Source: a virus. From it: a DNA stretch of 49,833 nucleotides. The stretch spans positions 1 through 49,833 of the IMG/VR virus record IMGVR_UViG_3300021085_002851. One strand, written 5' to 3'. Positions 1,038 to 42,979 of this stretch are shown piece after piece. The stretch's first letter is position 1, and each line of letters begins with the position of its first letter. The notes under the pieces were generated by a model. That model was not told where the DNA came from, made no database searches, and saw nothing but the letters and a program-made list of their open reading frames with translations. A program made the position numbers and the translations under genes.

Positions 1038-1661
1038 ATGCTTGAAGGTATTCATGTTTTTGATGATGTTATATCATTAGAAAAGCAAAATTTATTAGAA
1101 TCTTACTTTACTAAACACCCAGCATTCGAATATGGGAATAATTTACAAAACCTAAAAGGTATTGATGATACAATTATATTTCCACAATGGGTATTCCCCA
1201 AAAGAAAAAGTGATACATTCCCAAATAATATTAATGTTATATTACTTGAAATATCTTCAAACATCTTATCCAAACTTGGATTAAGTAAATCAATTAATTG
1301 GAGAATTAAAATAAACAAACTATGTTATTTAGATACACCTAAACATAATCAAGATTATGCTATACACCTTGATAGAGAAGAAGAGCATTTTTCTTTAGTG
1401 TACTACATAAATGACTCTGATGGTGATACTTCATTTTTTGAATTAAACGATAGTTATAATATAGATGATTGGGAAGATGCTTTGAGAAACAAAGACTTTG
1501 ATTGTTTCAAAAAAATTCAAACAAGTTCACCAAAGAAAGGTAGAGCAGTCATATTTGATGGAAAAACTCTTCATAGGTCAACGTATCCATCTAGTATAGA
1601 TAGATATGTAGTAAATATGAACTTTAACTACAATAATAAGGAAAATAAAAAATTATTTTGA
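1038..1661 (+). CDS. 2OG-Fe(II) oxygenase
   Basis: A 207-residue protein with the signature of the 2-oxoglutarate/Fe(II) dioxygenase fold (prolyl-4-hydroxylase-like). The iron-binding triad is visible as H110-x-D112 (AIHLD) and H179 (GKTLHRST), with R189 ten residues on as the likely 2-oxoglutarate anchor. The region between them (LVYYINDSDGDTSFFE) is the usual beta-sheet core with the GGxxxF-like turn. Such enzymes hydroxylate protein side chains, small molecules or nucleobases; the substrate here is unknown. It precedes the Hint-domain protein gene and follows an unknown small gene. A second, different member lies at 30710. Confidence 0.8.
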   Translation: MLEGIHVFDDVISLEKQNLLESYFTKHPAFEYGNNLQNLKGIDDTIIFPQWVFPKRKSDTFPNNINVILLEISSNILSKLGLSKSINWRIKINKLCYLDTPKHNQDYAIHLDREEEHFSLVYYINDSDGDTSFFELNDSYNIDDWEDALRNKDFDCFKKIQTSSPKKGRAVIFDGKTLHRSTYPSSIDRYVVNMNFNYNNKENKKLF

Positions 1662-1714: not shown

Positions 1715-1738
1715 CACAGTAAATAAGGAAAAACTAGT

Positions 1739-3667
1739 ATGAGAGGAACAATAATTGGAAGTGATTATATCTTTGATGGAACTGATGCTAAAGTTCTAGA
1801 GATAAACACAAACACCGGAATATTCAACCAAGGGTTACAATATCTAGATATAGACCCATTCTTTGACTTCTTAGAAGCAAACAATATAACAACTTTAGAG
1901 TTCATTTATAATGAAAGTATTACACCCGCAACTGGTATTTATAACCAAGGTTTTAATGGTTTACTTGCATCTGAATGTGAAACAAGAAGCATTACTTTTG
2001 TTCAACATGAAGTACAAGCTAGTGCAATCACAATACCATCAGTAACAGATGCGGATGATAAATTCATTTTAAGACATGCTTATGATGTATCAGCTATTGT
2101 TGATTCAACATATTGTGCTGATAAACTTGAATTTTTAGAATTGATGAGTGGTTCTGATGCACTCCCAAAAACATATGTTTCTTCATCTGATTTCTTATAC
2201 GATACGTTAGATACAATTGATACATCTGTAACAGATGCACCTAACCTTATTGAAAAGGCTAGATATCCAAATTATGATTTATCATTATATCCAAAATTAT
2301 ATGGATTTACCGATTCAGCTGACTTAGCTTCTAAAAAAGCAGATATTACTAGTAATGATTTCTTTATTCAAGAATATATCACAGGTGATAATAATGTGGT
2401 AAATGATAGAATTACTGTAATTAGAAGTTTAGATATTATACATGGAGCTAATTTAGATATTATAAACTTAGGTTCATACAGAAACTCTTCTGTTTTACCA
2501 TTATCCCATGATAGTTCAAATTTTAGATTAAGAATTGGTGAAGAAGGATTAGAATCTAGTTCATTGAGTTCTTACACAAGGTTTAAGTATCTTAATAAAT
2601 ACTCTGGTAAACAAACCCTTCAATATCACACAGATGCAGAATCTGATATTTTAATACCTAATAATCTAACAACTAATGTTGAAAATTTAGAAATAAGTTC
2701 ATCAATAGTAGCACCTAGATTCCAATTAGTAACTGGTTCTGAATATAGTGGTGAACCTAGTGATGACTATCAAGAACATCAAGGTACTTTAGCATTAACA
2801 ACTTCTTCTCTTTCATATGAAACATCCTCGGTAGTAAGTATAATTTCGGAAAGTGTAGAAGATTTATTTGTTAGAGTAACACTTAATGATGGAACTTCTT
2901 TTGATGATGCACCTGAAAATGAAATTTATACCGTAATATCAGGTTCAAATGATATAACAAGATTTGAATTTATTAATAAATTGTTGGTAGGTGATAAGAT
3001 TGTATATTTTGAAAGTGGTTCTAGTAATCATGTAACAAAAGAAATTAGTTCCTTAGATATAGTTTATAAAGATAACTTTTACATCTATTCCGTGGATATT
3101 GAACCATATGATTATTTCTTAGTTGATTCGAAAAACGGAGATGGTTTGTTCTCAATTCATCACAATATGTGTAACTACTGTTATACAACTTGGGCACCAT
3201 GTGGTAACTATTATTGTGATAATAACTGTTCAACTTGTGGTGGATGTTTTATTGCAGGAACTAAAGTAACTTTGGCAGATGGAAGTGAAATGAACATAGA
3301 GGAAATAGAACCTGGCCAGATGGTTAAAACATTTGATACTGATGAATTAGTAGTTTCAGAGGGATTTGTGGGTGATGTTCAAGAAATAACACAAAATAAG
3401 CTAGTTAAAATAACATTATCTAATGACCATGTTATTACAACTACTACTGAACATCCATTCTATGTAACCAATAGAGAACACGAAGGATGGTGGACTATAG
3501 CAGAAGATATTAACGTAGATGATGACTTTCTAAAACTTGATGGTAGTAAAATATCTGTATCTAACATAGAAATAATTGAAGAATCGGCAACAGTATATAA
3601 CTTAGTAGCCGTTTCAGATTTCAATAACTTTTTCGTAGATGGAATATTAGTACATAATAAAAAATAA
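1739..3667 (+). CDS. large protein with C-terminal Hint (hedgehog/intein) domain
   Basis: 642 residues. From C503 (CFIAGTKVTL) to the end (LVHNKK) it is a complete Hint domain: nucleophile Cys at block A, TxxH-type block B (TTTTEHPFYV, His about 572) and a terminal HN pair at 639-640. Only two Lys follow, with no +1 Cys/Ser/Thr, so autocleavage rather than protein splicing is expected (bacterial intein-like type). Directly before it lies a Cys-rich stretch with eight Cys in about 26 residues (CNYC, CSTCGG). The N-terminal 250 residues carry ATP-grasp-like phrases (KVLEINTNTG near residue 20, then FIQEYITGD near 210) in an order that would suit a permuted fold; this is tentative. The middle is Ser/Thr-rich and beta-like. 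Probably a virion or secreted self-processing protein. Confidence 0.8.
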   Translation: MRGTIIGSDYIFDGTDAKVLEINTNTGIFNQGLQYLDIDPFFDFLEANNITTLEFIYNESITPATGIYNQGFNGLLASECETRSITFVQHEVQASAITIPSVTDADDKFILRHAYDVSAIVDSTYCADKLEFLELMSGSDALPKTYVSSSDFLYDTLDTIDTSVTDAPNLIEKARYPNYDLSLYPKLYGFTDSADLASKKADITSNDFFIQEYITGDNNVVNDRITVIRSLDIIHGANLDIINLGSYRNSSVLPLSHDSSNFRLRIGEEGLESSSLSSYTRFKYLNKYSGKQTLQYHTDAESDILIPNNLTTNVENLEISSSIVAPRFQLVTGSEYSGEPSDDYQEHQGTLALTTSSLSYETSSVVSIISESVEDLFVRVTLNDGTSFDDAPENEIYTVISGSNDITRFEFINKLLVGDKIVYFESGSSNHVTKEISSLDIVYKDNFYIYSVDIEPYDYFLVDSKNGDGLFSIHHNMCNYCYTTWAPCGNYYCDNNCSTCGGCFIAGTKVTLADGSEMNIEEIEPGQMVKTFDTDELVVSEGFVGDVQEITQNKLVKITLSNDHVITTTTEHPFYVTNREHEGWWTIAEDINVDDDFLKLDGSKISVSNIEIIEESATVYNLVAVSDFNNFFVDGILVHNKK

Positions 3668-3679
3668 AAAGGAATAAAC

Positions 3680-3814
3680 ATGGGAAATATAGCACCAAGA
3701 ATAGATAACGATATTATATCAACACAGATAACAGAAACATCTGCGGATGAAAAAACAAAGATAGCAACTATCTTCGCAGATATAGTTCAAAGAATAAAAG
3801 ACGCAAATTCATAA
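3680..3814 (+). CDS. small hypothetical protein (44 aa)
   Basis: ATG at 3680 opens 44 codons ending TAA 3812-3814 (starts MGNIAPRIDND, ends VQRIKDANS). AAAAAGGAA lies 6 bases or so upstream as a ribosome site, and the gene starts 12 bases after the Hint protein stop, so it is probably translated from the same mRNA. The peptide is soluble and amphipathic-helical in its second half. No family recognised. Confidence 0.6.
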   Translation: MGNIAPRIDNDIISTQITETSADEKTKIATIFADIVQRIKDANS

Positions 3815-3830
3815 AATTTTTTATTTTTTG

Positions 3831-3862
3831 CTTGGATTTGTGAAATATTTTTCGTATATTTG
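3831..3862 (+). promoter_or_regulatory. Bacteroidetes-type promoter for the gene at 3880
   Basis: CTTG at 3831-3834, 20 bases, then TATATTTG at 3855-3862, matching the Bacteroidetes housekeeping pattern (TTTG about -33, TAnnTTTG about -7). TTTTTCG precedes the -7 box. ATTTGTTACAAAT over 3858-3870 is an inverted repeat at the expected start site. The ATG is 17 bases downstream. Confidence 0.75.
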
Positions 3863-7781: not shown

Positions 7782-7813
7782 TTTGGAAAATATAAATATT
7801 TTTCGTATATTTG
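7782..7813 (+). promoter_or_regulatory. Bacteroidetes-type promoter for the helicase gene
   Basis: TTTG 7782-7785 (the canonical -33), 20 bases, TATATTTG 7806-7813. The upstream box starts at the TAA of the exonuclease gene. ATG 7836 is 22 bases after the -7 box. This is the one member of the family without a clear inverted repeat at the start site. Confidence 0.75.
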
Positions 7814-19714: not shown

Positions 19715-21343
<1,629 letters not shown>

Positions 21344-21358
21344 ATAAATACGAAAAGA

Positions 21359-21390
21359 CTTGGTAGTTTCAAATAAATTTCGTATATTTG
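21359..21390 (+). promoter_or_regulatory. Bacteroidetes-type promoter for the clamp gene
   Basis: CTTG 21359-21362, 20 bases, TATATTTG 21383-21390. ATATTTGTACAAATAT (21384-21399) is a perfect 16-base palindrome across the -7 box and start site, the strongest in the family. ATG 21424 is 33 bases after the box. Confidence 0.78.
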
Positions 21391-25209: not shown

Positions 25210-25233
25210 ATGAATATGTTATGTTTAATTTAA
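25210..25233 (+). CDS. possible 7-codon leader peptide
   Basis: ATG 25210 opens MNMLCLI and stops at TAA 25231-25233. It is placed 9 bases after AAGGAGG (25194-25200), the best Shine-Dalgarno sequence in the area, while the receptor's likely ATG (25254) is 53 bases from it. A ribosome ending at 25233 could restart at 25254, which would couple receptor translation to the leader. Functional status is inference. Confidence 0.25.
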   Translation: MNMLCLI

Positions 25234-25253
25234 TAAAAATGGAAATTACAATT

Positions 25254-27956
25254 ATGAAAAAACTATTATTAGTTGGATTGATGATGTTATCATCATTTAT
25301 TACTTTCGCACAAATTAGTGGGACAGTATTAGATTCTGATACAAATTCACCATTACCAGGAGCAACAGTAATCATTCAAGGAACGAGTGATGGAGTTGTT
25401 ACTGATTTTGATGGTAAATTTAGTTTAGAATCTGCGGTTGCAGGAAATACTCTTGTTATTTCGTATCTTGGATATGAAACAACAGAAGTTTCAGCAACTA
25501 ATGGATTATCTGTTGGACTTCTACAAAGCTTGAATACACTTCAAGAAGTAGTTGTTACATCAGGTGTAATTGATGTTGCGAAAGTGAGAGAAACACCAGT
25601 AGCAGTATCAACGATTAGGGCAAGTGAAATTGCACTAAAGGTAGGGAACTTAGAATTTCCTGAAATCATGAACAAGACACCAGGAGTCTACGCAACCAAA
25701 CAAGGTGGTGGATATGGTGATTCGAGAATCTCTTTAAGAGGATTCGACCAAAGAAACACATCTTTCCTTATCAATGGGCAACCAGTAAATGATATGGAAA
25801 ATGGATGGGTTTATTGGTCTAACTGGCAAGGTCTTACTGATGTTGCAAGTGGAATCCAAATTCAGAGAGGATTAGGAGCTTCAAGATTAGCAGTACCATC
25901 AGTAGGTGGAACTGTATCAATCTTTACAAGAGCTGCTGAAAAAGAAGAAGGTGGTTCTGTTGCTCAAATGGCAGGGAACGATGGATACTTCAAAACTACT
26001 GCTACCTATAATACAGGTAAAAACGAAAAAGGATGGGCTTCATCTTTCTTGTTATCAAGATGGCAAGGTGATGGATATATCTACAACACAAGTGGTGAGG
26101 GATATACTTACTTTTTCGCAGTTGGTTATTCGCCAGAAGGTTCAAAGCACGATTTGAACTTTTCTTTTTTAGGGGCTGGACAATGGCACCATCAAAGAGA
26201 TGTGTGGGTATCTATTAGAGATTACCAAAACTTCGGTACTGAAGGTATTGATAGAAGATGGAACTCAAATGGTGGTACTTACCAAGGTGAAGAATTCTCA
26301 ATGAGAAGAAACTTCTACAACAAACCATTAGCAACATTTAACTGGGATTTCCAAATCTCTGATAATGTTAAACTTGCTACCTCCTTATATGGTTCAGCAG
26401 GTAGAGGTGGAGGAACAGGTCCAAGAGGTAGAAACTACTACAACTCGGAAACTGATATTCTTCCTTTCAGAAAAGATTTAACTGAACACTACTTAGAAAA
26501 TGGTAGAGGTTCAAGAACTGCAGATGGATTTATCGATTACGATGCAGTAGTTGCATTCCAAACTTCTAATACCGATGCTTATAGTGGTGGTATTAGTGGA
26601 TATGATGGACAACTTATCGCATCTAATGGATTCAAAGATGATGGTGTAAATAGAGCTGGTCTTATTAGAAGAGCATCTATGAACTCTCATGACTGGGTTG
26701 GAGCAATCTCTAACTTAGAAATCGATAGTGGTAAATTTAAGTACTCAATCGGAATCGATTTGAGAAACTATAAAGGATACCATTATAGAACTGTGAATAA
26801 CCTAATGGGATTTGATGGTTACTACTCAACTGGTAACAAGAACTCAGCAGGACAAATTATTAATACTACAATCGATGCTTCTCCATTCCAAGATACTGGA
26901 ATTAGAGGACCTAAGATTGATTACTTCAACATTGGATATGTTGGATGGCAAGGTGTTAATGGTTTGATTGAATACAATGATGATGAGAAACTAACTGCAG
27001 TATTACAAGCAGGTTTATCTAATCAATCATTCCAAAGAGAAGATTTATTTGACCAACCAGCACTACCATTATCTGAAAAAGTTAATGTAGGTGGTGGATA
27101 TCTTAAAGGTGGTGCAAACTACAACTTTAATGAAAAATCAAATGTATTCTTCAACGCAGGTTTCATTTCAAGACAACCTCAGTTTGGAACTGTATTCCCT
27201 AACTACGCAAACATCGTTAATGATGATTTACAAAACGAAGAAATTCGTTCAGTAGAATTAGGATATGGATTCACATCTTCTAAATTAAATGTTAACGTAA
27301 ACCTTTACTCTACAACATGGGGTAACAGATTCGTTACAAGAAGTTTATCTAACCAACAAGGTGTAGATGGTTCAGCACAATTTAGAAACATTGATGTAGT
27401 ACACAATGGTATTGAATTCGAAGGAGTTTATAGAGCAACATCTAAGTTAACTCTTAAAGGTATGTTATCAATCGGTGATTGGAAATATACTAACGATTTC
27501 TCAGCTGAATTGTTTGATGAAAATCAACAATCAATTGGTACAGGTACTCTTTATACAAAAGATGCTAAAGTTGGTGATGCAGCACAATTCACTTCTTATG
27601 TAGAAGCTGATTACAGACTCGGTAAATTTAATGTAGATTTAGGATATAGATTCGTAGATGGATTATATGCTGATTACTCTATTACTGATTCAGCATTTAC
27701 TCAACCAGATAATGATGGAGCATTAAAACTTCCTTCATATGGTTTATTAGATGGTGGTGTTACTTTTAACATTGGTAAAGGATTATCCTTTAGAGCAAAT
27801 GTTAATAACCTATTAGATACAGTTTATATTGCTGAATCTAATTCTAACATTCACGCAACTTCAACTTCAACTACTTGGAATGGTATAGATACGAGAAACT
27901 CAGTATGGTTCGGATTCGGACGTACTTGGAATGCTTCTCTAAAATACAGATTCTAA
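25254..27956 (+). CDS. TonB-dependent outer membrane receptor
   Basis: 900 residues, complete. Start 25254 is chosen because it opens directly with a signal peptide (MKKLLLVGLMMLSSFITFA, cut before Q20); an in-frame ATG at 25221 would add 11 polar residues. Order: signal peptide; carboxypeptidase-regulatory-like beta domain (about 20-85, ISGTVLDSDTNSPLPGATV); TonB box-like LQEVVVT; plug domain (about 100-220, RISLRGFDQRNTSFLINGQ); 22-strand-type barrel to the terminal Phe (ASLKYRF). It is a TonB-energised importer of the kind flavobacteria use for siderophores, peptides or glycans. No SusD follows. It is flanked by its own leader and a strong terminator, and lies in a phage replication region. 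Ligand unknown. Confidence 0.93.
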   Translation: MKKLLLVGLMMLSSFITFAQISGTVLDSDTNSPLPGATVIIQGTSDGVVTDFDGKFSLESAVAGNTLVISYLGYETTEVSATNGLSVGLLQSLNTLQEVVVTSGVIDVAKVRETPVAVSTIRASEIALKVGNLEFPEIMNKTPGVYATKQGGGYGDSRISLRGFDQRNTSFLINGQPVNDMENGWVYWSNWQGLTDVASGIQIQRGLGASRLAVPSVGGTVSIFTRAAEKEEGGSVAQMAGNDGYFKTTATYNTGKNEKGWASSFLLSRWQGDGYIYNTSGEGYTYFFAVGYSPEGSKHDLNFSFLGAGQWHHQRDVWVSIRDYQNFGTEGIDRRWNSNGGTYQGEEFSMRRNFYNKPLATFNWDFQISDNVKLATSLYGSAGRGGGTGPRGRNYYNSETDILPFRKDLTEHYLENGRGSRTADGFIDYDAVVAFQTSNTDAYSGGISGYDGQLIASNGFKDDGVNRAGLIRRASMNSHDWVGAISNLEIDSGKFKYSIGIDLRNYKGYHYRTVNNLMGFDGYYSTGNKNSAGQIINTTIDASPFQDTGIRGPKIDYFNIGYVGWQGVNGLIEYNDDEKLTAVLQAGLSNQSFQREDLFDQPALPLSEKVNVGGGYLKGGANYNFNEKSNVFFNAGFISRQPQFGTVFPNYANIVNDDLQNEEIRSVELGYGFTSSKLNVNVNLYSTTWGNRFVTRSLSNQQGVDGSAQFRNIDVVHNGIEFEGVYRATSKLTLKGMLSIGDWKYTNDFSAELFDENQQSIGTGTLYTKDAKVGDAAQFTSYVEADYRLGKFNVDLGYRFVDGLYADYSITDSAFTQPDNDGALKLPSYGLLDGGVTFNIGKGLSFRANVNNLLDTVYIAESNSNIHATSTSTTWNGIDTRNSVWFGFGRTWNASLKYRF

Positions 27957-32680: not shown

Positions 32681-34063
32681 ATGGCGAAAAAGAAAAAGAT
32701 TTTACTACTCTCTGATGACTTAAGAATGTCATCAGGTATAGCAACTGTATCCAAAGAATTCGTATTTGGAAACTTTGATAAATTTGATTGGGTTCAATTG
32801 GGAGCTGCAGTTAATCATCCAGAAAAAGGTAAAGAAATCGATTTAGGAGATGATGCACGAAAAATTAGTGGTATCGAAGATGCTTCACTTAAAATCATCC
32901 CTTGGAGTGGGTATGGTGATGCAAATATTCTTAGAGAATTAATCATGAGACATCAACCTGATGCTATCCTACACTTTACAGACCCAAGATATTGGAGATG
33001 GTTATATGAAATGGAAGCTGAAGTTAGACAAAACATTCCAATTCTATTTTATCATATATGGGATGATTTACCAGACCCTCATTACAATAGAAATTACTAC
33101 GAAAGTTGTGATTGGTTAGGATGTATCTCAAGACAAACTTATGGTATCGTAAGTAGAGTTGGTAAATTAGAATCAGAAACAATCAAACCCTTAGAAGATT
33201 GGCAAGTGGATTATGTACCACATGGTATAAATTCAAATATCTACAAACCAACAGAAGTACCAGCTAAGTTCAAAAAAGAACTTTTAGGTGATAAACAATA
33301 TAAGCTTGTTTTATTTTGGATGAATCGAAACATTAAACGTAAACAACCATCAGATGTTATTTGGGCATTCAAGAAATTTGTAGATAGATTACCAAAAAAA
33401 GATAAAGATAAGGTGTGTTTAATAATGCACACTGCACCTAGAGACCAAAATGGAACTGACTTAATCGAAGTTAAAAGAAGATTAGCAGATGATTGTGATA
33501 TCAAATTTTCAACAGAAAGAGTTACACAAGAACAATTAAATTGGATTTATAATTTATCAGATGTTACAATTAATATTGCAGGTAACGAAGGATTTGGATT
33601 AACAACTGCAGAATCAATCATGGCAGGAACTCCTGCAATCATAAATGTTACTGGTGGATTACAAGACCAATGTGGATTCAAGGTAGATGGTAAATATCTA
33701 ACTGCAGAAGATTATAAAGAAATTGGTTCACTTCACAATTACAGAGAGTGGGAAGATAAAGTAACTCATGGTGAGTGGGTAAAGCCAGTATGGCCAAGAG
33801 TTCAAACAATGGTTGGTTCACTTCCAACTCCTTATATCATTGATGATAAGGTTGATGTTGAAGAAGTATCTGAGGCTATAGAATATTGGTATAATAAAAC
33901 ACCTAAACAAAGAAAAGAAGCTGGATTGGTAGGTAGAACAGAATTCATGGGTGAAATGGGATTGAATGCTAAAAATCAAAATAAAAGAATGGCAGATGGA
34001 ATTCTTAAAGCAATTGAGAATTGGAAACCAAAGAAGAAGTTCAATGTATATAAAATTAAATAA
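32681..34063 (+). CDS. glycosyltransferase, GT4-like (GT-B fold)
   Basis: 460 residues. N-terminal Rossmann-like start KILLLSDDLRMSSGIATVSKEF and the C-terminal donor-site signature NEGFGLTTAESIMAGTPAI, typical of group 1 glycosyltransferases (E-x7-E). It would transfer a sugar from a nucleotide donor onto a glycan or protein. First gene of the sugar locus; its stop overlaps the next ATG (TAATG). Confidence 0.82.
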   Translation: MAKKKKILLLSDDLRMSSGIATVSKEFVFGNFDKFDWVQLGAAVNHPEKGKEIDLGDDARKISGIEDASLKIIPWSGYGDANILRELIMRHQPDAILHFTDPRYWRWLYEMEAEVRQNIPILFYHIWDDLPDPHYNRNYYESCDWLGCISRQTYGIVSRVGKLESETIKPLEDWQVDYVPHGINSNIYKPTEVPAKFKKELLGDKQYKLVLFWMNRNIKRKQPSDVIWAFKKFVDRLPKKDKDKVCLIMHTAPRDQNGTDLIEVKRRLADDCDIKFSTERVTQEQLNWIYNLSDVTINIAGNEGFGLTTAESIMAGTPAIINVTGGLQDQCGFKVDGKYLTAEDYKEIGSLHNYREWEDKVTHGEWVKPVWPRVQTMVGSLPTPYIIDDKVDVEEVSEAIEYWYNKTPKQRKEAGLVGRTEFMGEMGLNAKNQNKRMADGILKAIENWKPKKKFNVYKIK

Positions 34064-34341
34064 TGAGTAAACCAATATTCATTGTTAGATTTCCTGGTTA
34101 TTGGAATAATAATCAAGTTCAGGAATCTCGTAGAGCTATTCATAACATGAAAGAACTTAGTGATGAGTATCATATTCTGACTTTACAAGATAATGAAATT
34201 GAAACTACAAAATTTGAATGTTATAATTCACCACACGAACCAGAAAAGTTAGAAGAAATAACAAAACTAACTGAACTCTCAATACAGAGATGTTTAAGAA
34301 ACGAAGAAGAAAACCGATTAAGAGAATTAGAAAATGAATAA
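34063..34341 (+). CDS. small hypothetical protein in the sugar locus
   Basis: 92 residues (starts MSKPIFIVRFPGYW). The start is strand-like and the C-terminal third is a charged helix (RNEEENRLRELENE). It lies between two glycosyltransferase genes and overlaps the second by 8 bases. No catalytic motif seen. Confidence 0.55.
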   Translation: MSKPIFIVRFPGYWNNNQVQESRRAIHNMKELSDEYHILTLQDNEIETTKFECYNSPHEPEKLEEITKLTELSIQRCLRNEEENRLRELENE

Positions 34342-35593
34342 ACCATTAGTAATATTTCAGGCACCAGTAGCAACAAGAAGTGGTTATGGTGACCATTCAA
34401 GAGATATCTTGAAATCATTATTTGAATTAGATAAGTACGATATAAAAGTTGTACCAACACGATGGGGAAACACCCCACAAGACCAAATCAACCCACAAAC
34501 TAAATTTGGTAAAAGGATATTAGAAAGTTTAACAACTCAAGTCAATAGACAACCTGATATTTTCATCCAAGTATCAGTTGCAAATGAATTTAGAAGAGTT
34601 GGTAAATATAATATTGGTATCACTGCAGGGGTTGAAACTACAACTGCACCACAAGAATTTTTACAAGGTGGTAATCAAATGGATTTAATTATAACTCCAT
34701 CTGAGTTTACAAAAGAAACGTTAGTAAAGACAGTTTATACTCAAGTTGATAAAAATACACAGAAAAAAACAGGTGAACTCAAATTACAAAAACCAGTTGA
34801 GGTTTTATTTGAAGGAGTAAATACAGAAGTATTTAATGGTAAATGCTCAAAATCTGTTTTAGATTCAGTTGATACTGATTTTAATTTCTTATTTGTAGGA
34901 CATTGGTTGGCTGGAGATTTAGGGCAAGATAGAAAAGATGTTGGGATGATGATTCAAACATTTTGTACTGTTTTCAAAGATATACCAAAGAAACAACAAC
35001 CAGGACTAATCATAAAAAGTTCACAGGCAGGATTTTCTGTAATGGAAAGAGAATCAATATCAAACAAAATAAAAGATTTGACAAATCAGTTTGGAGATAA
35101 ATGTCCTCCTATTCATTTAGTATTTGGTGATTTATCTGAATCAGAATTAAATGATTTATATAACGATGAAAAAGTAAAATCATTTTTAATGTTCACTAAA
35201 GGAGAAGGATATGGTAGACCACTTGCAGAGTTTGCAACAACTGGTAAACCAATCATCGTTTCTAATTGGAGTGGACATAAAGATTTCTTACCAGAAGAAA
35301 ACACAGTTTACTTAGAGGGTGAGCTAAAAGCAGTTCATGAATCTGCTGCAAATAAGTTTTTACTTAAAGAATCAAACTGGTTTAATGTTGATTACTCTAA
35401 GGCAGCAGGTCAAATATTTGATGTTTATAAAAACTATAATAAACATATCAAAAAATCTGCTGGATTAAAAACTAATATAAACGATAACTTTACATTAGAT
35501 AAGATGACACAAAAATTAGGTGAGATACTTGATAAACATGCTAAAGTTGCTGTACCAGTTGCATTAAAGTTACCTGAAATTAAAAAACTGTAA
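34334..35593 (+). CDS. glycosyltransferase, GT4-like (GT-B fold)
   Basis: 419 residues. VIFQAPVATRSGYGDHSRDI at the start and KGEGYGRPLAEFATTGKPI in the donor domain mark it as a group 1 glycosyltransferase. FLFVGHWL and the following segment match the start of the C-terminal Rossmann domain. It is probably a paralogue of 32681 with different specificity. Acceptor and donor unknown. Confidence 0.82.
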   Translation: MNKPLVIFQAPVATRSGYGDHSRDILKSLFELDKYDIKVVPTRWGNTPQDQINPQTKFGKRILESLTTQVNRQPDIFIQVSVANEFRRVGKYNIGITAGVETTTAPQEFLQGGNQMDLIITPSEFTKETLVKTVYTQVDKNTQKKTGELKLQKPVEVLFEGVNTEVFNGKCSKSVLDSVDTDFNFLFVGHWLAGDLGQDRKDVGMMIQTFCTVFKDIPKKQQPGLIIKSSQAGFSVMERESISNKIKDLTNQFGDKCPPIHLVFGDLSESELNDLYNDEKVKSFLMFTKGEGYGRPLAEFATTGKPIIVSNWSGHKDFLPEENTVYLEGELKAVHESAANKFLLKESNWFNVDYSKAAGQIFDVYKNYNKHIKKSAGLKTNINDNFTLDKMTQKLGEILDKHAKVAVPVALKLPEIKKL

Positions 35594-35596
35594 TGA

Positions 35597-36121
35597 ATGG
35601 CGTTTACAAGACAATATAAAGCATTTCTAAGACCTGAGAAGAGAGTACCTCGTTCACAAATACGACCAAGAAATATTTATCGTATCACCACTTATAAAGG
35701 CGGAGAACCAGCAACAAGAAGTGGTGAAGATGCAAGATATATTTTTGTGATTGGTATTGTTAATGGTAAGGTTCATGCGATTAAACTTAATCCAATACAA
35801 CCTATTCACTTTACTAACTTTATTGGTAAACTTAGAGATAAGAGAATCCCAATAGGTTCAGACCAAGCATTAGAACTTTTATTAAAAAGATTCTCTAAAG
35901 ATGGTAGTTCTTTATTTGAATCGTATATTAAGAATAATTCTAAATTATATTCTCGTTCTCTTGGAAATTACAGAACCTATATATTAAACAGTATTGTTAA
36001 TGTATATGAAATTAGATTTGAAGAGGATGTACTCAAAAGATTATTTAATGAACCAGGTACAACATCAACTCGTAGAGAAATTATACAAGATGAAGTAAAC
36101 GAAGATACAAATGAAGATTAG
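35597..36121 (+). CDS. phage hypothetical protein in the sugar locus
   Basis: 174 residues (starts MAFTRQYKAFLRPEKRV). The first half is basic and strand-rich (IYRITTYKGG, YIFVIGIVNGKVHAIKL), the C-terminus is acidic (VNEDTNED). No signal peptide. Surrounded by glycosyltransferases but without a sugar-enzyme motif, it looks more like a conserved phage protein carried within the locus. The start at 35597 is used because the nearer ATG at 35593 is out of frame. Confidence 0.6.
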   Translation: MAFTRQYKAFLRPEKRVPRSQIRPRNIYRITTYKGGEPATRSGEDARYIFVIGIVNGKVHAIKLNPIQPIHFTNFIGKLRDKRIPIGSDQALELLLKRFSKDGSSLFESYIKNNSKLYSRSLGNYRTYILNSIVNVYEIRFEEDVLKRLFNEPGTTSTRREIIQDEVNEDTNED

Positions 36122-36731
36122 TTACGGAATAACAGTACATAATGAATTAGAAGAACTAACTAAATTATTAGATTTTCTAAATAATAATATAAGGGAAGAA
36201 GATGAAATTGTAATTCAGTATGATGAGGGTGGTGTTACACCTGAAGTACTAGAGTTTCTAAAAATCAAAAAACAAATTCATGGTTATACTGTAATTGGAT
36301 TTCCTTTGAATAAAGATTTTGCATCCTATAAAAATAATCTTAAGAAACATTGTACTAAAGATTATATATTTCAGATAGATGCAGATGAAATTCCACATGA
36401 AGTTATGATAGGTTATCTTCCACAGGTATTGGCAGATAATCCAGTCGATATAATATTCGTACCACGAGTAAATACAGTTAGTGGTTTATCACAAGAACAT
36501 ATTGAAAAGTGGAGATGGAACGTAAATGAAAAAGGTTGGGTTAATTGGCCCGATTATCAAACTAGAATTTACAGAAATACAGAAGATGTAACTTGGATGA
36601 ACAAGGTACATGAAAAGATTACAGGATATGATACATTCTCAAACTTTCCAGCAGAAGAACATTGGGCATTATATCATCCAAAAGAAATAAATAGACAAGA
36701 AAAACAAAACGAATTTTACGAAACAATATAA
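36111..36731 (+). CDS. glycosyltransferase, GT2-like (GT-A fold)
   Basis: 206 residues. SYGITVHNELEELTKLLDFL is the usual GT2 start and FQIDADEIPH the metal-binding DxD region. It is short for the family, but keeps the nucleotide-sugar domain. It overlaps the previous gene by 11 bases; GroES follows one base later. Confidence 0.78.
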   Translation: MKISYGITVHNELEELTKLLDFLNNNIREEDEIVIQYDEGGVTPEVLEFLKIKKQIHGYTVIGFPLNKDFASYKNNLKKHCTKDYIFQIDADEIPHEVMIGYLPQVLADNPVDIIFVPRVNTVSGLSQEHIEKWRWNVNEKGWVNWPDYQTRIYRNTEDVTWMNKVHEKITGYDTFSNFPAEEHWALYHPKEINRQEKQNEFYETI

Positions 36732-36732
36732 T

Positions 36733-37038
36733 ATGGAAGGAACATTTACACCACTAGGTGATAGAGTATTAATAAAACCTAGTAAAAAAGAAGAAGCTAA
36801 AACAAAGAGCGGAATTATTCTAACTGATTCATCTACACAAGGAAAGAAAGTTTATGGTGAAGTTATAGAAGTTGGTACAGGTATATTTTCTCAAAGTGGA
36901 GAAAGAATCCCTATGACTGTAAAAAGAGGAGATACTGTTATGTATGAAAAAGGACAAGGAATCAATGAAATAGAGATTGATTCAGAAAAGTATTTATTGT
37001 TTAACGAACACCAATTAATTGGATTAATAAGAAAATGA
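36733..37038 (+). CDS. groES: GroES-like co-chaperonin
   Basis: 101 residues. PLGDRVLIKPSK is the GroES start, the mobile loop is TKSGIILTDSST and the end has YEKGQGINEIEIDSEKYLL, then NEHQLIGLIRK. It would cap the phage GroEL ring encoded at 19727. It sits oddly inside the sugar locus rather than next to groEL and overlaps the epimerase ATG by 4 bases. Full-length bacterial type, not a gp31-like divergent form. Confidence 0.92.
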   Translation: MEGTFTPLGDRVLIKPSKKEEAKTKSGIILTDSSTQGKKVYGEVIEVGTGIFSQSGERIPMTVKRGDTVMYEKGQGINEIEIDSEKYLLFNEHQLIGLIRK

Positions 37039-37886
37039 AAATATTAGTAACAGGAGGAGCTGGTTTTATAGGAACTAACCTCATTAAAAGATTATTAAAA
37101 GAAGGTCATGAAGTGGTATCACTTGATGATTACGAAACAGGTACAGAGGATAACCATGTAGATGGTGCTACCTATGTTAACGGTGATATCGATTCCCTTA
37201 CTTATTGGAAAGGTGAATCATTTGATTTAGTATATCATTTAGCAGCACTAAGTAGAATACAACCATCATTTGATGACCCAACAGAATGTTTTAGAGTAAA
37301 TGCACAAGGTTCACAAGTTGTTGCTGAATGGGCAAGATTAAATGATGTAAAGGTAGTATATGCTGGTTCATCTTCAAGATGGCATGACCCATTTCAATCA
37401 CCATATGCAGCATTCAAACATATGGGTGAGGAGATATTCAAACTATATAGACAAACTTATGGTATCGATGCAGAGATTTGTAGATTTTACAATGTATATG
37501 GACCTGATGAAATCATCGAAGGTGATTGGGCAGCAGTCATTGGTATATGGAGGAGACAAGTTAGAGATAATCAAGCAATAACAATCATCGGTGATGGAGA
37601 ACAAAGAAGAGATTTTACTCATGTTATAGATATCGTTGATGGATTATATAAAGTGGGTACTGGTTCTGAAAAACATGAAGATGCATGGGAACTTGGTTGT
37701 GGTGTAAACTATTCAATCAATGAAGTATATGGAATGTTCAAAGAAAAGTTTCCACAGGTTGAATCACTTTATTTACCAGACCAAAAAGGTAATTATAGAA
37801 AAACTCTAAGAGAAAACGATGATACATTAGAGAGATTGGGATGGAAACCAGGAGATAGATTAAGAGATTATATTCAATCACTATGA
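37035..37886 (+). CDS. NAD-dependent nucleotide-sugar epimerase/dehydratase
   Basis: 283 residues, extended short-chain dehydrogenase. GGAGFIG (7-13) binds NAD; GSSS (111-114) and Y124-AAF-K128 are the catalytic Ser and YxxxK. It resembles UDP-glucose 4-epimerase-type enzymes that convert nucleotide sugars. With the UDP-galactopyranose mutase at 41124, a path to UDP-galactofuranose is possible, but the exact substrate is not visible. Confidence 0.85.
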   Translation: MKILVTGGAGFIGTNLIKRLLKEGHEVVSLDDYETGTEDNHVDGATYVNGDIDSLTYWKGESFDLVYHLAALSRIQPSFDDPTECFRVNAQGSQVVAEWARLNDVKVVYAGSSSRWHDPFQSPYAAFKHMGEEIFKLYRQTYGIDAEICRFYNVYGPDEIIEGDWAAVIGIWRRQVRDNQAITIIGDGEQRRDFTHVIDIVDGLYKVGTGSEKHEDAWELGCGVNYSINEVYGMFKEKFPQVESLYLPDQKGNYRKTLRENDDTLERLGWKPGDRLRDYIQSL

Positions 37887-38725
37887 TAGGAATAGTAGGG
37901 CAGGGTTTTGTAGGTAATGCAGTTTATCAGAAGTTTAAGAATTACTATGATGTTCTTACTCACGATAAAGATGATACCAAATCAACATCAACACTAGGTA
38001 ATATGGTTCATTTGTGTGATATCATATTTTTATGTTTACCAACTCCAATGAAATCAGATGGTAGTTGTGATGTATCTATACTTGAAAATGTATTACAAGA
38101 AATAGATTTAATTGCAGATAATTATGAATTTGGAGTAACTAAAAGAACTATTGTAATCAAATCAACAATCTCACCAGGTACAACTAAAAAATGGAATAAT
38201 AAATACGAATCACTTAGATTAGTATTTAATCCAGAATTTCTTACAGAAAGAAATGCAGAAAAGGATTACGAAAATCAAAATAGAATTATATTAGGAGGAC
38301 CAAGACCTGCAACAACTGAATTGAAACAGATATTTTCAAAGGTATTTCCAAAAGCACATATAATTAAAACTGATTCTACTCACGCTGAAATGGTGAAATA
38401 CTTAACAAACAATTTCCTTTCAGTAAAAGTATCATTCGCAAATGAGATGTATCAGTTATGTGATAAATTAAATATTGATTACGATAAAGTTGTAGAATAT
38501 GCAACTTATGATGATAGGTTAGGTAAATCTCATTGGAATGTGCCAGGCCATGATGGAGATTTTGGATTTGGTGGACATTGTTTCCCCAAAGATTTAGCAG
38601 CAATACTTCATCTAACTGAGGAATTAAAAACAGTTAATAATGTATTATGTGCAACTCAAGAAACTAACAACAATGTTAGAAAAGATAGGGATTGGGAAAA
38701 AATGAAAGGAAGAGCAGTATCATGA
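37883..38725 (+). CDS. UDP-glucose/nucleotide-sugar dehydrogenase, short form
   Basis: 280 residues. GQGFVG (6-11) binds NAD, FNPEFL (115-120), K182/N187 and the catalytic Cys C233 (GFGGHCFPKD) are present. The family is usually 390-450 residues; here the C-terminal UDP-binding Rossmann domain is missing and the protein stops about 47 residues after the Cys. It may work as a minimal dimer with donated binding surface or be altered in substrate. It overlaps both neighbours by 4 bases. Confidence 0.82.
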   Translation: MIGIVGQGFVGNAVYQKFKNYYDVLTHDKDDTKSTSTLGNMVHLCDIIFLCLPTPMKSDGSCDVSILENVLQEIDLIADNYEFGVTKRTIVIKSTISPGTTKKWNNKYESLRLVFNPEFLTERNAEKDYENQNRIILGGPRPATTELKQIFSKVFPKAHIIKTDSTHAEMVKYLTNNFLSVKVSFANEMYQLCDKLNIDYDKVVEYATYDDRLGKSHWNVPGHDGDFGFGGHCFPKDLAAILHLTEELKTVNNVLCATQETNNNVRKDRDWEKMKGRAVS

Positions 38726-39609
38726 AAGTAACCTTTATATATGCATACGAAAAAGAAGAGTGGTCAACACCACTATCCTTGGCTAAAGAATTTCAATCTC
38801 AAGGTTGGGAAGTTGAGTTCGTATCAATAGGTTCTAATAGATTACAGAATTGGAATGATTCTCAAATAAAAAATTGGATAGATTCAAAACCAAAAACAGA
38901 TATTGTTTTGTTTATGGATTGGGGTAGATTTGATTCTCCTTTATTAGATAAGAAATTAGTAGATGCATTTTGGGTACAAGAAAGTGGAGATGACCCTCAA
39001 AACTTTGATAGAAACTTTCCTAAATCAGAAAGATTTCATATAACTCTTTCACCTGATTTTGAATCAACAACTGAATATCGAAAAAGAAATCAAGATGCTC
39101 ATTGGTGGACACATTTTGCAGATACACGAGTTCAATATCCTATGGATATACCAGCTGAATATGTTGCAGTAACAACAAGAGGATTGGGTAATTCTGAATT
39201 CTTAGATGTAGTTACACAACATGGTGGTGGTACTATTGGAAATCAGAATGGATTCAATTCAAAAGAACATACTGAATTTCTTAACAAGGGATTGATGGTT
39301 ATTCAAAACTCAAGATGGGGTGAGGTAACTCGTAGAATTTTTGAAGGTATGGCTTGTGGTAAATTAGTGTTATGTGATAGATTACATGAAAATAAAAAAC
39401 TACACGAATTATTTACAGATGGTGAGGATATCATTTACTATGATGATATGGTTGATTGTATTACTAAGATGAATAAATACAATGAAGATGATATAGAAAG
39501 AAATCGTATTGCAGAGAATGGATACAAAAAAGTTTTAGAAAATCATACTCAAAAACAAAGAGTAGAATTTGTAATAAAAAAATATAAAGAATGGAAAAAT
39601 TACCAATAA
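38722..39609 (+). CDS. glycosyltransferase, CgeB-like (GT-B)
   Basis: 295 residues from ATG 38722, which overlaps the preceding TGA; the in-frame ATG at 38692 would extend 30 bases into the upstream gene and is less likely. The C-terminal half has NSRWGEVTRRIFEGMACGKL, LFTDGEDIIYY and AENGYKKVLENHT, the pattern of the CgeB/Glyco_trans_1_2 donor domain. It transfers a sugar to an unknown acceptor. It overlaps the next gene by 19 bases. Confidence 0.75.
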   Translation: MKVTFIYAYEKEEWSTPLSLAKEFQSQGWEVEFVSIGSNRLQNWNDSQIKNWIDSKPKTDIVLFMDWGRFDSPLLDKKLVDAFWVQESGDDPQNFDRNFPKSERFHITLSPDFESTTEYRKRNQDAHWWTHFADTRVQYPMDIPAEYVAVTTRGLGNSEFLDVVTQHGGGTIGNQNGFNSKEHTEFLNKGLMVIQNSRWGEVTRRIFEGMACGKLVLCDRLHENKKLHELFTDGEDIIYYDDMVDCITKMNKYNEDDIERNRIAENGYKKVLENHTQKQRVEFVIKKYKEWKNYQ

Positions 39610-40400
39610 GTATCGGAATATTAGGATGGAATAGTAATAATTCATCTTTACCAAATACACTATTTTCTTATTTAAGAAATGAATTTTTTGATGTAACTGA
39701 TGATATTACCATCTTCTTTCAAGAGTTAAAAGAAGAAGATAAAAAACTAGCTAAATATTTTAACTTAAATTACATTGGTGATTCTGAAAATGTTGGAATT
39801 GCAAAAGCTTTTAATGCACTAGTAAATAACGCTAAACATGAAAACTTTCTTATATTAGAGCATGATTGGTATTTACAAGAAAATGCAGAAACAGTATTCA
39901 AAAGAATAAAATCTTCTATAAAATTATTAGATGATGGATATGATTGTATAAAGATGAGAAGTATGACCAGACCAGGTTTTACAGATTTTTCGGTAATAAG
40001 ATACTTAGATAATCCATTGGAATATTTTGATGAAGAACTACAATTACCATATCCTCATCTATTAGATACTTGTCATGTTTACAAAGATATACATAAAATG
40101 TATCCTGAAATGATAGAACAGATACATGATGGTGATTGTATGTATTATACATCATCTAGTAGATATGGAAACTATACAAATAATCCTTGTATTTACAAAA
40201 CCAAATTCTTTAAGGAAATACTTGAAAGATTTTTAGGAGATGTAGATTCCCTTGAAGGTTTAATTTCAAGATGGTGGGCTCACCAAAACTATAAAGTTGC
40301 TCATTCTGAAGGATTGTTTACTCATTTTGATGTTGTAAAATATGCTCCATATTGGGATACCATAAATTATTACACAAAAGAAAAAGGAATTCTTAAGTAA
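39591..40400 (+). CDS. glycosyltransferase-like protein (GT-A)
   Basis: 269 residues. PISIGILGWNSNNSSLPNTL at the start, NVGIAKAFNALV and FLILEHDWYL mimic the GT2 layout with EHDW at the place of the DxD motif. Donor and acceptor unknown. Starts within the preceding gene. Confidence 0.7.
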   Translation: MEKLPISIGILGWNSNNSSLPNTLFSYLRNEFFDVTDDITIFFQELKEEDKKLAKYFNLNYIGDSENVGIAKAFNALVNNAKHENFLILEHDWYLQENAETVFKRIKSSIKLLDDGYDCIKMRSMTRPGFTDFSVIRYLDNPLEYFDEELQLPYPHLLDTCHVYKDIHKMYPEMIEQIHDGDCMYYTSSSRYGNYTNNPCIYKTKFFKEILERFLGDVDSLEGLISRWWAHQNYKVAHSEGLFTHFDVVKYAPYWDTINYYTKEKGILK

Positions 40401-40425
40401 GGTGGATTTAATAATTTTAGACCTC

Positions 40426-41124
40426 ATGGAAAATAAAATGAATGAACAAAAAAATTTCTCAGTACATTATCAAACTTGGAAGAATAAAAAAGCAGTTAAA
40501 AAAGTTTTAACTGATTTTAGAAAAAACTTTCCAACTAATCCTGTAAGATTGGTTTCTGATAATGGCGAAGATTACCAAGATTTCGTTGATACTTTTGAAG
40601 TAGTGTATGAATTCAAAAAATCAAATGTTTTTCCTGGTGGTAAGTTTGGGGACATATCTCATTGTTATGAGTGGTTAAGTAGATTAAATGAAACTTGTCA
40701 AGTTTTTGATACAGATTGGGTAGTTATATTTGAAGATGATGTTCTTACAAAAAATAGTAATATAAAATTCCCAAATTCAGATTCAGGTGGAGTATATGTA
40801 CATCCATGGAAGCAACCATTAACCAATAAGTTAAAAGAAAGAAATACTTCAAACCAAAATTGGGGGTATGGAATGTGTGGAGGTTCTATTTTTAGAAGGC
40901 AATCTTTTTTAGATTCCTATAATAAAATAAATGAATTCCCATTAGAAGAGCTATCTAAGTTAGATGATAGAATCATTGGATGGTCTGATACTCTTATTAA
41001 TTGTTTCCTACAATACTTTGGGTACAGTTATGAAATTTGGAGTGGAATGGATGATATGTTATATCCTAATTGGAAACCAAAAGAAGATACTATTTTTCTT
41101 CATGGTTATAAAGAATTATATTAA
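40426..41124 (+). CDS. glycosyltransferase-like protein (GT-A)
   Basis: 232 residues from ATG 40426; a GTG at 40402 and an ATG at 40438 are in-frame alternatives and none has a clear ribosome site. VIFEDDVL (acidic metal site) and GYGMCGGSIFRRQSFLD (acceptor-side GG loop) suggest a GT-A enzyme related to the galactosyl or LPS-type GT25 group. Its stop overlaps the mutase ATG by one base. Confidence 0.65.
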   Translation: MENKMNEQKNFSVHYQTWKNKKAVKKVLTDFRKNFPTNPVRLVSDNGEDYQDFVDTFEVVYEFKKSNVFPGGKFGDISHCYEWLSRLNETCQVFDTDWVVIFEDDVLTKNSNIKFPNSDSGGVYVHPWKQPLTNKLKERNTSNQNWGYGMCGGSIFRRQSFLDSYNKINEFPLEELSKLDDRIIGWSDTLINCFLQYFGYSYEIWSGMDDMLYPNWKPKEDTIFLHGYKELY

Positions 41125-42206
41125 TGTTTGATTATCTAATAGTAGGAAGTGGATTTTTTGGTTCAATATGTGCAAGAGAACTTACTGATAATGGTAAGAA
41201 GGTTTGTGTAATAGAGAACAGAAATCATATTGGTGGTAATTGTTATACATCTAAAAGAGATGGTATAAATGTGCATGATTATGGCCCACATATATTTCAT
41301 ACTTCAAATGAAGAAGTTTGGAAGTGGATTAACCAATATGTAGATTTCAACGATTTTACATTAAGACCAGTTGCAAATTATAAAGGTGAAATTTATTCTT
41401 TACCTTTTAGTATGTGGACTTTTTCTAAGTTATGGAATATATCACATCCACATCAGGCAAAAGAAATTATAGAAGAACAAAGTTCTCATATAGATAACCC
41501 AAAAAACTTAGAAGAACAGGCAATCAAACTCGTTGGTAAAGATGTATATGAAAGGTTAATCAAAGGATATACAGAAAAGCAATGGAGAAAAGATGCAAAG
41601 GATTTACCAAAAGAAATTATAAAAAGATTACCTGTAAGATTTACTTATGATAATAATTATTTCAATGATAAGTACCAAGGTATTCCAATTGGTGGATATA
41701 CTCAAATATTTGAAAAGCTTTTAGATGGAATTGAAGTGAGATTAGAAACTGATTTTTTCAAAGCAGAGTTACCAAAATCTAAAAAAGTAATTTATACAGG
41801 ACCAATCGATAGATACTTTGATTATAAATTTGGCGAGTTAGAATATAAAACAACCAAATTTGAACATAAAAAAATGGATACTGATAATTATCAAGGAGTG
41901 GTAATGATGAACTATACTGAAAAAGATATTCCTTTTACAAGAACAATAGAACATAAGCACTTTGAGAAAGTAGAATCGGATTCAAGTTGGGTAACATGGG
42001 AGTTTCCAACTGAATATAAAGCAGAAGAAACAGAACCATATTATCCAGTCAATGATAAAGAAAATACAAATATATATAACAAGTATAAAAAACTTGCTAA
42101 TAAAGAAAAAGATGTTTATTTTGGTGGTAGATTGGCAGAATACAAATATTACGATATGCACAAAGTAATTGAATCAGCACTAAATTTTGTAAAAAATATT
42201 AAATGA
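41124..42206 (+). CDS. glf: UDP-galactopyranose mutase
   Basis: 360 residues. FAD site GSGFFG (8-13) and VIENRNHIGGN, then the mutase signatures YGPHIFHTS, RLPVRFTYDNNYF and the late WVTWEFP and FGGRLAEYKYYDM. It converts UDP-galactopyranose to UDP-galactofuranose, a precursor of bacterial surface glycans. Length is normal. Strong sign that the locus makes a galactofuranose-bearing glycan. Confidence 0.93.
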   Translation: MFDYLIVGSGFFGSICARELTDNGKKVCVIENRNHIGGNCYTSKRDGINVHDYGPHIFHTSNEEVWKWINQYVDFNDFTLRPVANYKGEIYSLPFSMWTFSKLWNISHPHQAKEIIEEQSSHIDNPKNLEEQAIKLVGKDVYERLIKGYTEKQWRKDAKDLPKEIIKRLPVRFTYDNNYFNDKYQGIPIGGYTQIFEKLLDGIEVRLETDFFKAELPKSKKVIYTGPIDRYFDYKFGELEYKTTKFEHKKMDTDNYQGVVMMNYTEKDIPFTRTIEHKHFEKVESDSSWVTWEFPTEYKAEETEPYYPVNDKENTNIYNKYKKLANKEKDVYFGGRLAEYKYYDMHKVIESALNFVKNIK

Positions 42207-42979
42207 GTATAAAGATTAATTGTGAATTCGGTTCGGAACTTGTTTTCAAGGTTGCTCAAGTATATAAAGAGTGGAAGTCAAATCCAAATATTCAAGTACA
42301 AACATTTAAGGGTATGGCACCTTTTTATTTTTATATGAATAGTGATAATCTTACATTAAAAGATGGTAAGAGAGGATTGGGTTCACCTGGTGGTTGTTTT
42401 CTACATAAGGCAGAACTACCATCGTATTGTGATGAATATCCTGATTTTAGAAAAAAATACTCAGAATATAAATTACCTTTTGAAACTAGTAGAGAGATAA
42501 TTTTAATCAGTAACAAATACAATAAAGAGTGGAATAAACCACCAATAAATTTTTTAGATATACCAACACTAACTCAACTATTTGAAACTCTTAGTAAAAA
42601 ATATTTAGTTGTATATAATCGAATACAGAGTTCTGAAATAGTAGAAGATGTGCAATTAGAAAAGTATAACTTGGGTGATTATGAATTGGTAGAAAAATAT
42701 GATAATGTTATTGATTTCAATAAAATAGAATCAGATTATACTCCAAATGAATTACAACTAATATTAGTTTCACAAGCAAAACACAAAATATCTGTACAAG
42801 GTGGTACAAGTATTTTATCAAGTTTGGGAGGTGGAACAAATGATATTTTTGTGGTAAAAGGTGGAGAATTAGAAAATGATACAATGAACGTTTGGTATAA
42901 GAATTTATCAAATGGTGATATAAAAATTACAACTCATTCTAAGTATGAAACTTTGATAGAAAAATTTAGAACAATATGA
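42203..42979 (+). CDS. possible glycosyltransferase-like protein
   Basis: 258 residues, no signal peptide. The second half contains HKISVQGGTSILSSLGGGTN and a Lys-rich helical end, which reminds me of the donor-binding region of some GT-B enzymes (Gly-rich loop after a strand). The first part has PFYFYMNSDNLTL and LPSYCDEYPDF. I cannot place the family. It sits in a string of glycosyltransferase genes with 4-base overlaps on both sides. Confidence 0.5.
   Translation: MSIKINCEFGSELVFKVAQVYKEWKSNPNIQVQTFKGMAPFYFYMNSDNLTLKDGKRGLGSPGGCFLHKAELPSYCDEYPDFRKKYSEYKLPFETSREIILISNKYNKEWNKPPINFLDIPTLTQLFETLSKKYLVVYNRIQSSEIVEDVQLEKYNLGDYELVEKYDNVIDFNKIESDYTPNELQLILVSQAKHKISVQGGTSILSSLGGGTNDIFVVKGGELENDTMNVWYKNLSNGDIKITTHSKYETLIEKFRTI

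Follow-up and report, generated by a model that had tools for sequence, protein, structure and literature searches.

A viral protein with a predicted permuted ATP-grasp head, a putatively silent Hint domain and a six-cysteine peptide

The locus analyzed here raises the question of what a viral protein might do that begins with motifs of ATP-grasp enzymes and ends with a self-processing Hint domain. The gene lies in a window of 49,833 nucleotides, which is the whole stretch of DNA that was analyzed, and consists of a 642-amino-acid ORF (1739-3667, + strand) that starts with ATG and is preceded, at a distance of about 9 nt, by the ribosome-binding site AAGGA. The predicted order of its parts is a permuted ATP-grasp head, a silent Hint domain, a six-Cys peptide, a canonical Hint domain and a terminal KK. 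The domain folds rest on prediction and homology, and we are confident of the architecture itself. The residues that are invariant in 96 of 96 homologues, together with a dN/dS of about 0.13-0.17, indicate that this architecture is not due to chance. The features of the locus are the following.

1038..1661, + strand: 2OG-Fe(II) oxygenase gene, directly upstream of the Hint gene (PF13640, 2.7e-7)
1725..1729, + strand: AAGGA ribosome-binding site (sequence)
1739..3667, + strand: whole gene, 642 aa (ORF; 96 distinct complete homologues)
1739..2608, + strand: predicted circularly permuted ATP-grasp, residues 1-290, with K129, K173, Q211-E212, R229 and D232 (AlphaFold, Foldseek, hhalign, conservation)
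1742..1819, + strand: beta hairpin IIGSDYI..VLEINTNTG, residues 2-27 (RimK alignment; D9/E21/N23 in 96/96)
2609..3166, + strand: degenerate (silent) Hint, residues 291-476, with H297 at the Cys1 position and without TxxH (model, Foldseek, hhalign)
3161..3166, + strand: terminal H475-N476 of the silent Hint (kept in 96/96)
3167..3244, + strand: six-Cys aromatic-rich peptide, residues 477-502, MCNYCYTTWAPCGNYYCDNNCSTCGG (sequence; C-terminus of most homologues)
3245..3658, + strand: canonical BIL-like Hint, residues 503-640, with C503, T568/T569..H572, H639 and N640 (profile matches)
3659..3664, + strand: K641-K642, the sole residues past the terminal Asn, with no +1 nucleophile (ORF translation)

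The N-terminal head

The head was modeled by AlphaFold with a pLDDT of 80 and a pTM of 0.77. A Foldseek search of the PDB with this model returned a sole match at E<0.001, the ATP-grasp-type gamma-glutamylcysteine synthetase 3k1t (E 1.8e-4, probability 1.0), with the glutathione-synthetase-like 5oev (E 0.03) in second place. The corresponding TM-scores are low (0.40/0.30), plausibly because a sequential aligner here meets a permuted domain, and they also leave some doubt. By sequence, the head has no significant match in Pfam, PHROGs, NCBIfam or the PDB, and no significant match to it was found in the viral structure library. Curated ATP-grasp family models likewise gave no match at cut-off, RimK being matched by 9 of 43 family members with a best E of 0.012, and none of the 43 was matched by the R2K Pfam models at E<=0.5. 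The end of the RimK Pfam profile (positions 142-168 of 188) weakly matches residues 1-27 of one homologue.

The head family was then compared by hhalign with nine RimK-type proteins fetched for this purpose. Taken in its native order, the head aligns through residues 2-27 alone, to RimK 241-266. Once the first 36 residues are moved to the end, a single alignment of 145 columns is obtained, in which the motifs CADK/DK, PN..K/V.K, FIQEYI/LQEYI and SDYI..VLEIN/VDIL..VMEVN (head/RimK) follow one another in this order. Residues D9/E21/N23 of the head fall on D248/E260/N262 of E. coli RimK, which are the metal-ligand D and the E-x-N on adjacent strands. The rotated alignment scores 25.5, against a best of 24.7 and a mean of 13.7 in 200 column shuffles, with an hhalign match probability of just about 4%; the N-terminal 36 residues alone match RimK with a P of 7e-4. 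D9, E21, N23, K173, R229 and D232 are invariant among the 96 homologues, and K129 and E212 are kept in 93 and 94 of them, respectively; the head thus has the two ATP-binding lysines (K129, K173) and the acidic hinge (E212) of ATP-grasp enzymes. Eukaryotic-type glutathione synthetase is a circularly permuted ATP-grasp, with its E-x-N motif ahead of the ATP-binding lysines.

The original prediction had seen a possible permuted ATP-grasp in the motifs KVLEINTNTG and FIQEYI. Both were found, at residues 18-27 and 209-214, and the guess of a permuted ATP-grasp is supported by the 3k1t match and by the rotated RimK alignment. It had also held that the lack of an ATP-grasp fold in a predicted structure would count against it, and the predicted fold of the head is ATP-grasp-like. 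It is very likely that the head is a circularly permuted ATP-grasp of the RimK/glutathione-synthetase type. Because the ATP-grasp residues are invariant, the head is probably active as an ATP-dependent amide ligase.

The two Hint domains and the peptide between them

Residues 503-640 are matched above the cut-offs by the Pfam models PT-HINT (7.8e-13), Hint (2.8e-9) and Intein_splicing (3.8e-9), as well as by TIGR01445 above its own cut-off, and solved BIL/PT-HINT relatives match residues 500-640 with an E of 1e-9. Cys1 of this second Hint is C503, block B contains T568/T569..H572, and the terminal H639-N640 is followed by K641-K642 only. The earlier description of a full Hint with two residues past the terminal Asn therefore agrees with the profile matches and with the KK ending. 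No catalytic motif is damaged in the double-Hint members that were examined, and across the family the +1 residue of the second Hint is K, F, N or M, never C, S or T. Ordinary splicing at the second Hint was considered and rejected, as the +1 residue is Lys and KK alone lies downstream; cleavage without splicing at C503 would fit the non-nucleophilic +1 residue. Type A BIL domains have a terminal His-Asn and no +1 nucleophile, and their chemistry, a thioester at the start of the Hint and Asn cyclisation at its end, leads mostly to cleavage (PMC4031507). By analogy, the second Hint is expected to form a thioester at 502-503 and to cyclise Asn at 640, with cleavage as the main outcome. It evolves faster than the rest of the protein (dN/dS 0.30-0.90), and its activity may therefore be dispensable. 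Relatives of the second Hint are present in unrelated intein-bearing phage genes among the cultured-phage records.

The preceding residues, 291-476, are given no domain name by sequence profiles. A model of residues 286-500 (pTM 0.79) is matched in Foldseek by inteins, Hog (Hedgehog autoprocessing) and BIL domains, with a best E of 5e-7, all of the top 50 matches at or below 1.6e-4, and a target TM of up to 0.78. In addition, the family profile of this first Hint matches the protein's own second Hint (hhalign P 5.6e-5). Since residues 291-476 have a Hint fold, the Cys-rich stretch that follows joins two Hint domains. The Cys1 position of the first Hint is occupied by His in 89 homologues and by Ile in 7, a Cys or Ser nucleophile being absent in all 96, and the TxxH of block B is lost (DGTSFDDAPENEIY and equivalents). 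The terminal His-Asn and D458 at the block-F position are kept in 96 of 96. Among members of the window clade, dN/dS is 0.11-0.14 for the head, 0.14-0.17 for the first Hint and 0.30-0.90 for the canonical Hint, so that the 'dead' Hint is the better conserved of the two. We considered H297 as an invariant rewired catalytic residue, and this idea is weakened by the Ile at that position in the divergent members L394-L402. The residue after the first-Hint Asn is Pro in 17 of the 96 homologues, which argues against cleavage by Asn cyclisation as the conserved role of this domain, and nothing suggests splicing. We favor a role of the first Hint as a non-cleaving presenter or scaffold.

The peptide between the two Hints contains Cys at 478, 481, 488, 493, 497 and 500, which makes six before C503 and seven if C503 is counted; the original prediction had put eight in about 26 residues. 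Exactly six Cys occur within 27 residues after HN in 82/96 homologues and five to eight in 95/96. A Cys stands at +2 after HN in 92/96, and the peptide usually has two to four Trp. Most homologues stop with this peptide; in the window protein it connects the two Hints, and its last residues before C503 are GG. The Cys-rich hinge had been proposed as an adjunct of the C503 thioester. An eight-Cys hinge tied to that thioester had to be given up, both because there are six Cys and because the same peptide ends homologues that have no second Hint. Searched against the PDB, the six-Cys peptide gave no match. In a DNA-pattern scan for CWCxWx.CG, the common single-Hint form, the in-frame gene matches were, among the matches listed, all family members, and the ones outside it arose by chance, being either short or out of frame.

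Distribution, descent and gene neighborhood

Homologues were gathered by scanning the viral contigs of IMG/VR with successive alignments, which yielded 96 distinct, complete sequences. The family is widespread in IMG/VR metagenomic virus contigs. The head had no match in 50,697 cultured-phage records, nor in GTDB, where two pattern-based scans covered 84,980 prokaryote species with one genome per species. No paper with both 'Hint domain' and 'ATP-grasp' was present in the literature searched, and the combination of parts described here was not found there. As there is neither such a paper nor a cultured-phage match, the family appears to be undescribed; judging from the searches made, it appears to be virus-only and previously unrecognized.

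Most members are about 495 aa long and end after the six-Cys peptide. The canonical second Hint is present in about 10 of the 96, namely in the window clade, L011, L015, L076, L142, L146/L147 and L404. In the single-Hint member L378:4327-6018, a stretch resembling Peptidase_S74 (PF13884 below the cut-off, E 0.02) takes the place of the second Hint. The members L394-L402 represent divergent branches with Ile at the Cys1 position and another Cys spacing, and they keep the HN ending. A tree of 41 sequences has double-Hint members in each of its two deep branches; under midpoint rooting this points to an ancestral second Hint and to its loss in a large clade of single-Hint members. This conclusion is only tentative because the window clade and L076 are on long branches.

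Among 75 distinct loci, whose shared descent means that co-occurrence counts are not independent, a Zn-ribbon-like gene with a product of 95-110 aa lies directly upstream of the head gene in 64, a PF04820 flavoprotein gene ('Trp halogenase' type) lies within seven genes of the head in 46 and tail-fibre-like genes are nearby in 15, while genes for 2OG-Fe(II) oxygenases, sulfotransferase-like, GDSL and radical SAM proteins are common at a distance of up to seven genes. A search by the ribbon protein alone found the head on the same strand in 62 of 66 newly fetched loci. Each of 20 long contigs (53-289 kb) carries one head. Thirteen of them also carry a single PF04820 gene, which in all 13 is no more than about 4 kb away from the head and in L146 is located on its other side. 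The NCBIfam neighbors of this flavoprotein (L139:1535-2803 and equivalents) include LodB, QhpG and GoxB, all far below the cut-offs. LodB, QhpG and GoxB act on Trp in proteins. That the PF04820 flavoprotein might, by analogy, modify Trp in a protein is only a lead.

The 93 distinct ribbon sequences most commonly end in [ST]-[IL]-[ILM] and are without EDWGE. LysX attaches amino acids to LysW, a carrier protein that binds Zn, at its C-terminus, where the EDWGE motif contains the acceptor Glu (PMC10433800). An identification of the ribbon protein with LysW was rejected, the EDWGE C-terminus being missing in the 93 sequences; by analogy, the Zn-ribbon protein could serve as a carrier or acceptor for the ligase.

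In the contig of the window, which may be a linear fragment, the 2OG oxygenase is the sole member of the conserved neighborhood that was found. The Hint gene stands beside gp32/uvsX, not beside the tail module, and is directly followed by an ORF of 44 aa that has the ribosome-binding site AAGGA (3680-3814, + strand). Elsewhere, this T4-like phage contig encodes a SusC/RagA-type TonB-dependent receptor (25221-27956, + strand; PF13715 4.6e-20, PF07715, PF00593), an unusual gene for a phage that suggests a Bacteroidota host. Three near-identical motifs, TTGG...AAATA(T/A)(T/A)TTTCGTATATTTG, are found close to gene starts on the + strand at 3832-3862, 7783-7813 and 21360-21390, resembling the Bacteroidota promoter type TTG-N19-20-TAnnTTTG; TAnnTTTG by itself showed no enrichment over shuffles. 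The phage also encodes a GroEL-like chaperonin (19727-21343, + strand; PF00118 2.3e-72; phrog_5725). A long run of ORFs at 32681-45448 (+ strand) includes glycosyltransferase- and epimerase-like genes, several of 260-300 aa, and suggests a surface-sugar module.

A proposed mechanism, its alternatives and known systems

The reading that we prefer combines an amide ligase, a silent Hint that presents the six-Cys peptide and a live BIL-like Hint for optional release; we put it forward tentatively, rating its chance at a little short of even. The head would use ATP and metal ions to activate a carboxylate, which it would then couple to an amine. The first Hint, its N-terminal nucleophile lost, would act without cleavage as a rigid presenter that keeps the six-Cys Trp/Tyr-rich peptide close to the ligase or to partner enzymes whose genes are neighbors in relatives. 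The candidate partners are the 2OG-Fe oxygenases, the flavin Trp-modifying enzyme, the sulfotransferase-like proteins and the Zn-ribbon protein. In the phage of the window and a few relatives, the second Hint would form a thioester at G502-C503, from which the upstream part would be released or transferred, as in type A BIL domains; release or transfer, not splicing, is expected because there is no +1 nucleophile. The covalent attachment envisaged in the original prediction would be only one possible outcome of such ligase or thioester chemistry. A wider proposal, which we consider unlikely, is a virus-only system for modifying peptides or proteins, consisting of a permuted ligase, a presenter Hint and its own six-Cys substrate, with the ribbon carrier, oxygenases and flavoenzyme acting in trans and a live Hint as an option.

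Other readings assign different roles to the same parts. The domains could be structural folds of a virion or tail accessory protein, with the six-Cys peptide as a tip stabilised by disulfides or metal and the second Hint as a self-removing assembly domain. The S74-like region of L378, which resembles a tail-fibre chaperone, would fit such a role, as would the tail-fibre-like genes of the 15 loci, but structural reuse would not need metal ligands and catalytic Lys/Arg/Asp to be invariant in 96/96, and the window gene adjoins gp32/uvsX rather than the tail module; we regard this reading as unlikely. It is distinctly unlikely, in our judgment, that the first Hint is live and that its Asn cyclisation frees the six-Cys peptide, with or without the second Hint attached, from a RiPP-like precursor. 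Asn cyclisation needs no Cys1, and the constancy of His-Asn despite the lost Cys1, the equally constant D458 at the block-F position, and a Cys/Trp/Tyr-rich peptide encoded near oxygenases, a flavin Trp-halogenase-type enzyme and radical SAM proteins in relatives all speak for it. Yet 17 homologues have Pro after the Asn, a residue that leaves poorly in this reaction, block B no longer has its TxxH, the Trp content of the tail has no obvious link to the presence of the halogenase gene, and neither an exporter nor a leader peptidase was identified.

The second Hint might also be a hitch-hiking, decaying intein-like element, the head, first Hint and peptide being the working unit. Its presence in about 10 of 96 complete homologues, its dN/dS of 0.30-0.90 against 0.13-0.17 upstream and its replacement in L378 are as such an element would predict. 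We nevertheless hold this to be improbable, since the double-Hint members examined keep all of their catalytic motifs, the domain occurs in both deep branches and may be ancestral, and its position directly past the six-Cys peptide is constant. Finally, the head could be of a different fold, its likeness to ATP-grasp superficial and its EINTN motif a product of chance, as the lack of a significant sequence match in Pfam, PHROGs, NCBIfam or the PDB would allow. The secondary structure of the model and the top Foldseek matches, however, point to ATP-grasp, and the RimK motifs align in order, including metal ligands, at residues that are invariant; a different fold is thus highly improbable. If the preferred reading of a Hint turned presenter beside an amide ligase is true, it would show how such folds change function and would offer a defined and expressible model of phage peptide modification driven by ATP. 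A new viral route to the modification or release of peptides is thereby opened to experiment.

Among known systems, RimK/LysX (PF08443) shares with the head, once rotated, the DK motif, the catalytic Lys, the QEYI-type hinge and the D...ExN, with the same identity and order. LysX pairs with the small Zn-binding LysW (PMC10433800), and the head is usually encoded beside a small Zn-ribbon-like protein. Unlike RimK/LysX, the head is permuted, with the metal-ligand hairpin N-terminal, falls below the Pfam cut-off and is fused to Hints; unlike LysW, the ribbon proteins are without EDWGE and mostly end in the short motif described above. The ATP-grasps of glutathione biosynthesis (3k1t of the GshA type, and glutathione synthetase) are the best Foldseek matches of the head, which differs from them in being phage-borne and multidomain, with no sequence similarity found. 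The R2K ATP-grasp ligases of jumbo phages resemble the head as phage-encoded ATP-grasps of the peptide-ligase type, whereas the R2K Pfam models do not match it, and neither permutation nor Hint fusion is described for R2K in the accessible part of that source (PMC7824862). With type A BIL domains (PMC4031507) the second Hint has in common Cys1, the block-B T..H, the terminal His-Asn and the absence of a +1 nucleophile; it differs in having two residues after it and another Hint plus the six-Cys peptide before it. The first Hint is like class 2 and class 3 inteins (PMC4031507, PMC7664689) in that the N-terminal nucleophile is gone and His-Asn is kept, and unlike them in being without the block-B TxxH and without the block-F Cys of the class 3 WCT motif, which is replaced by D. 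Every part is of a known kind, and a strictly conserved, converted Hint next to a permuted ligase is new to us.
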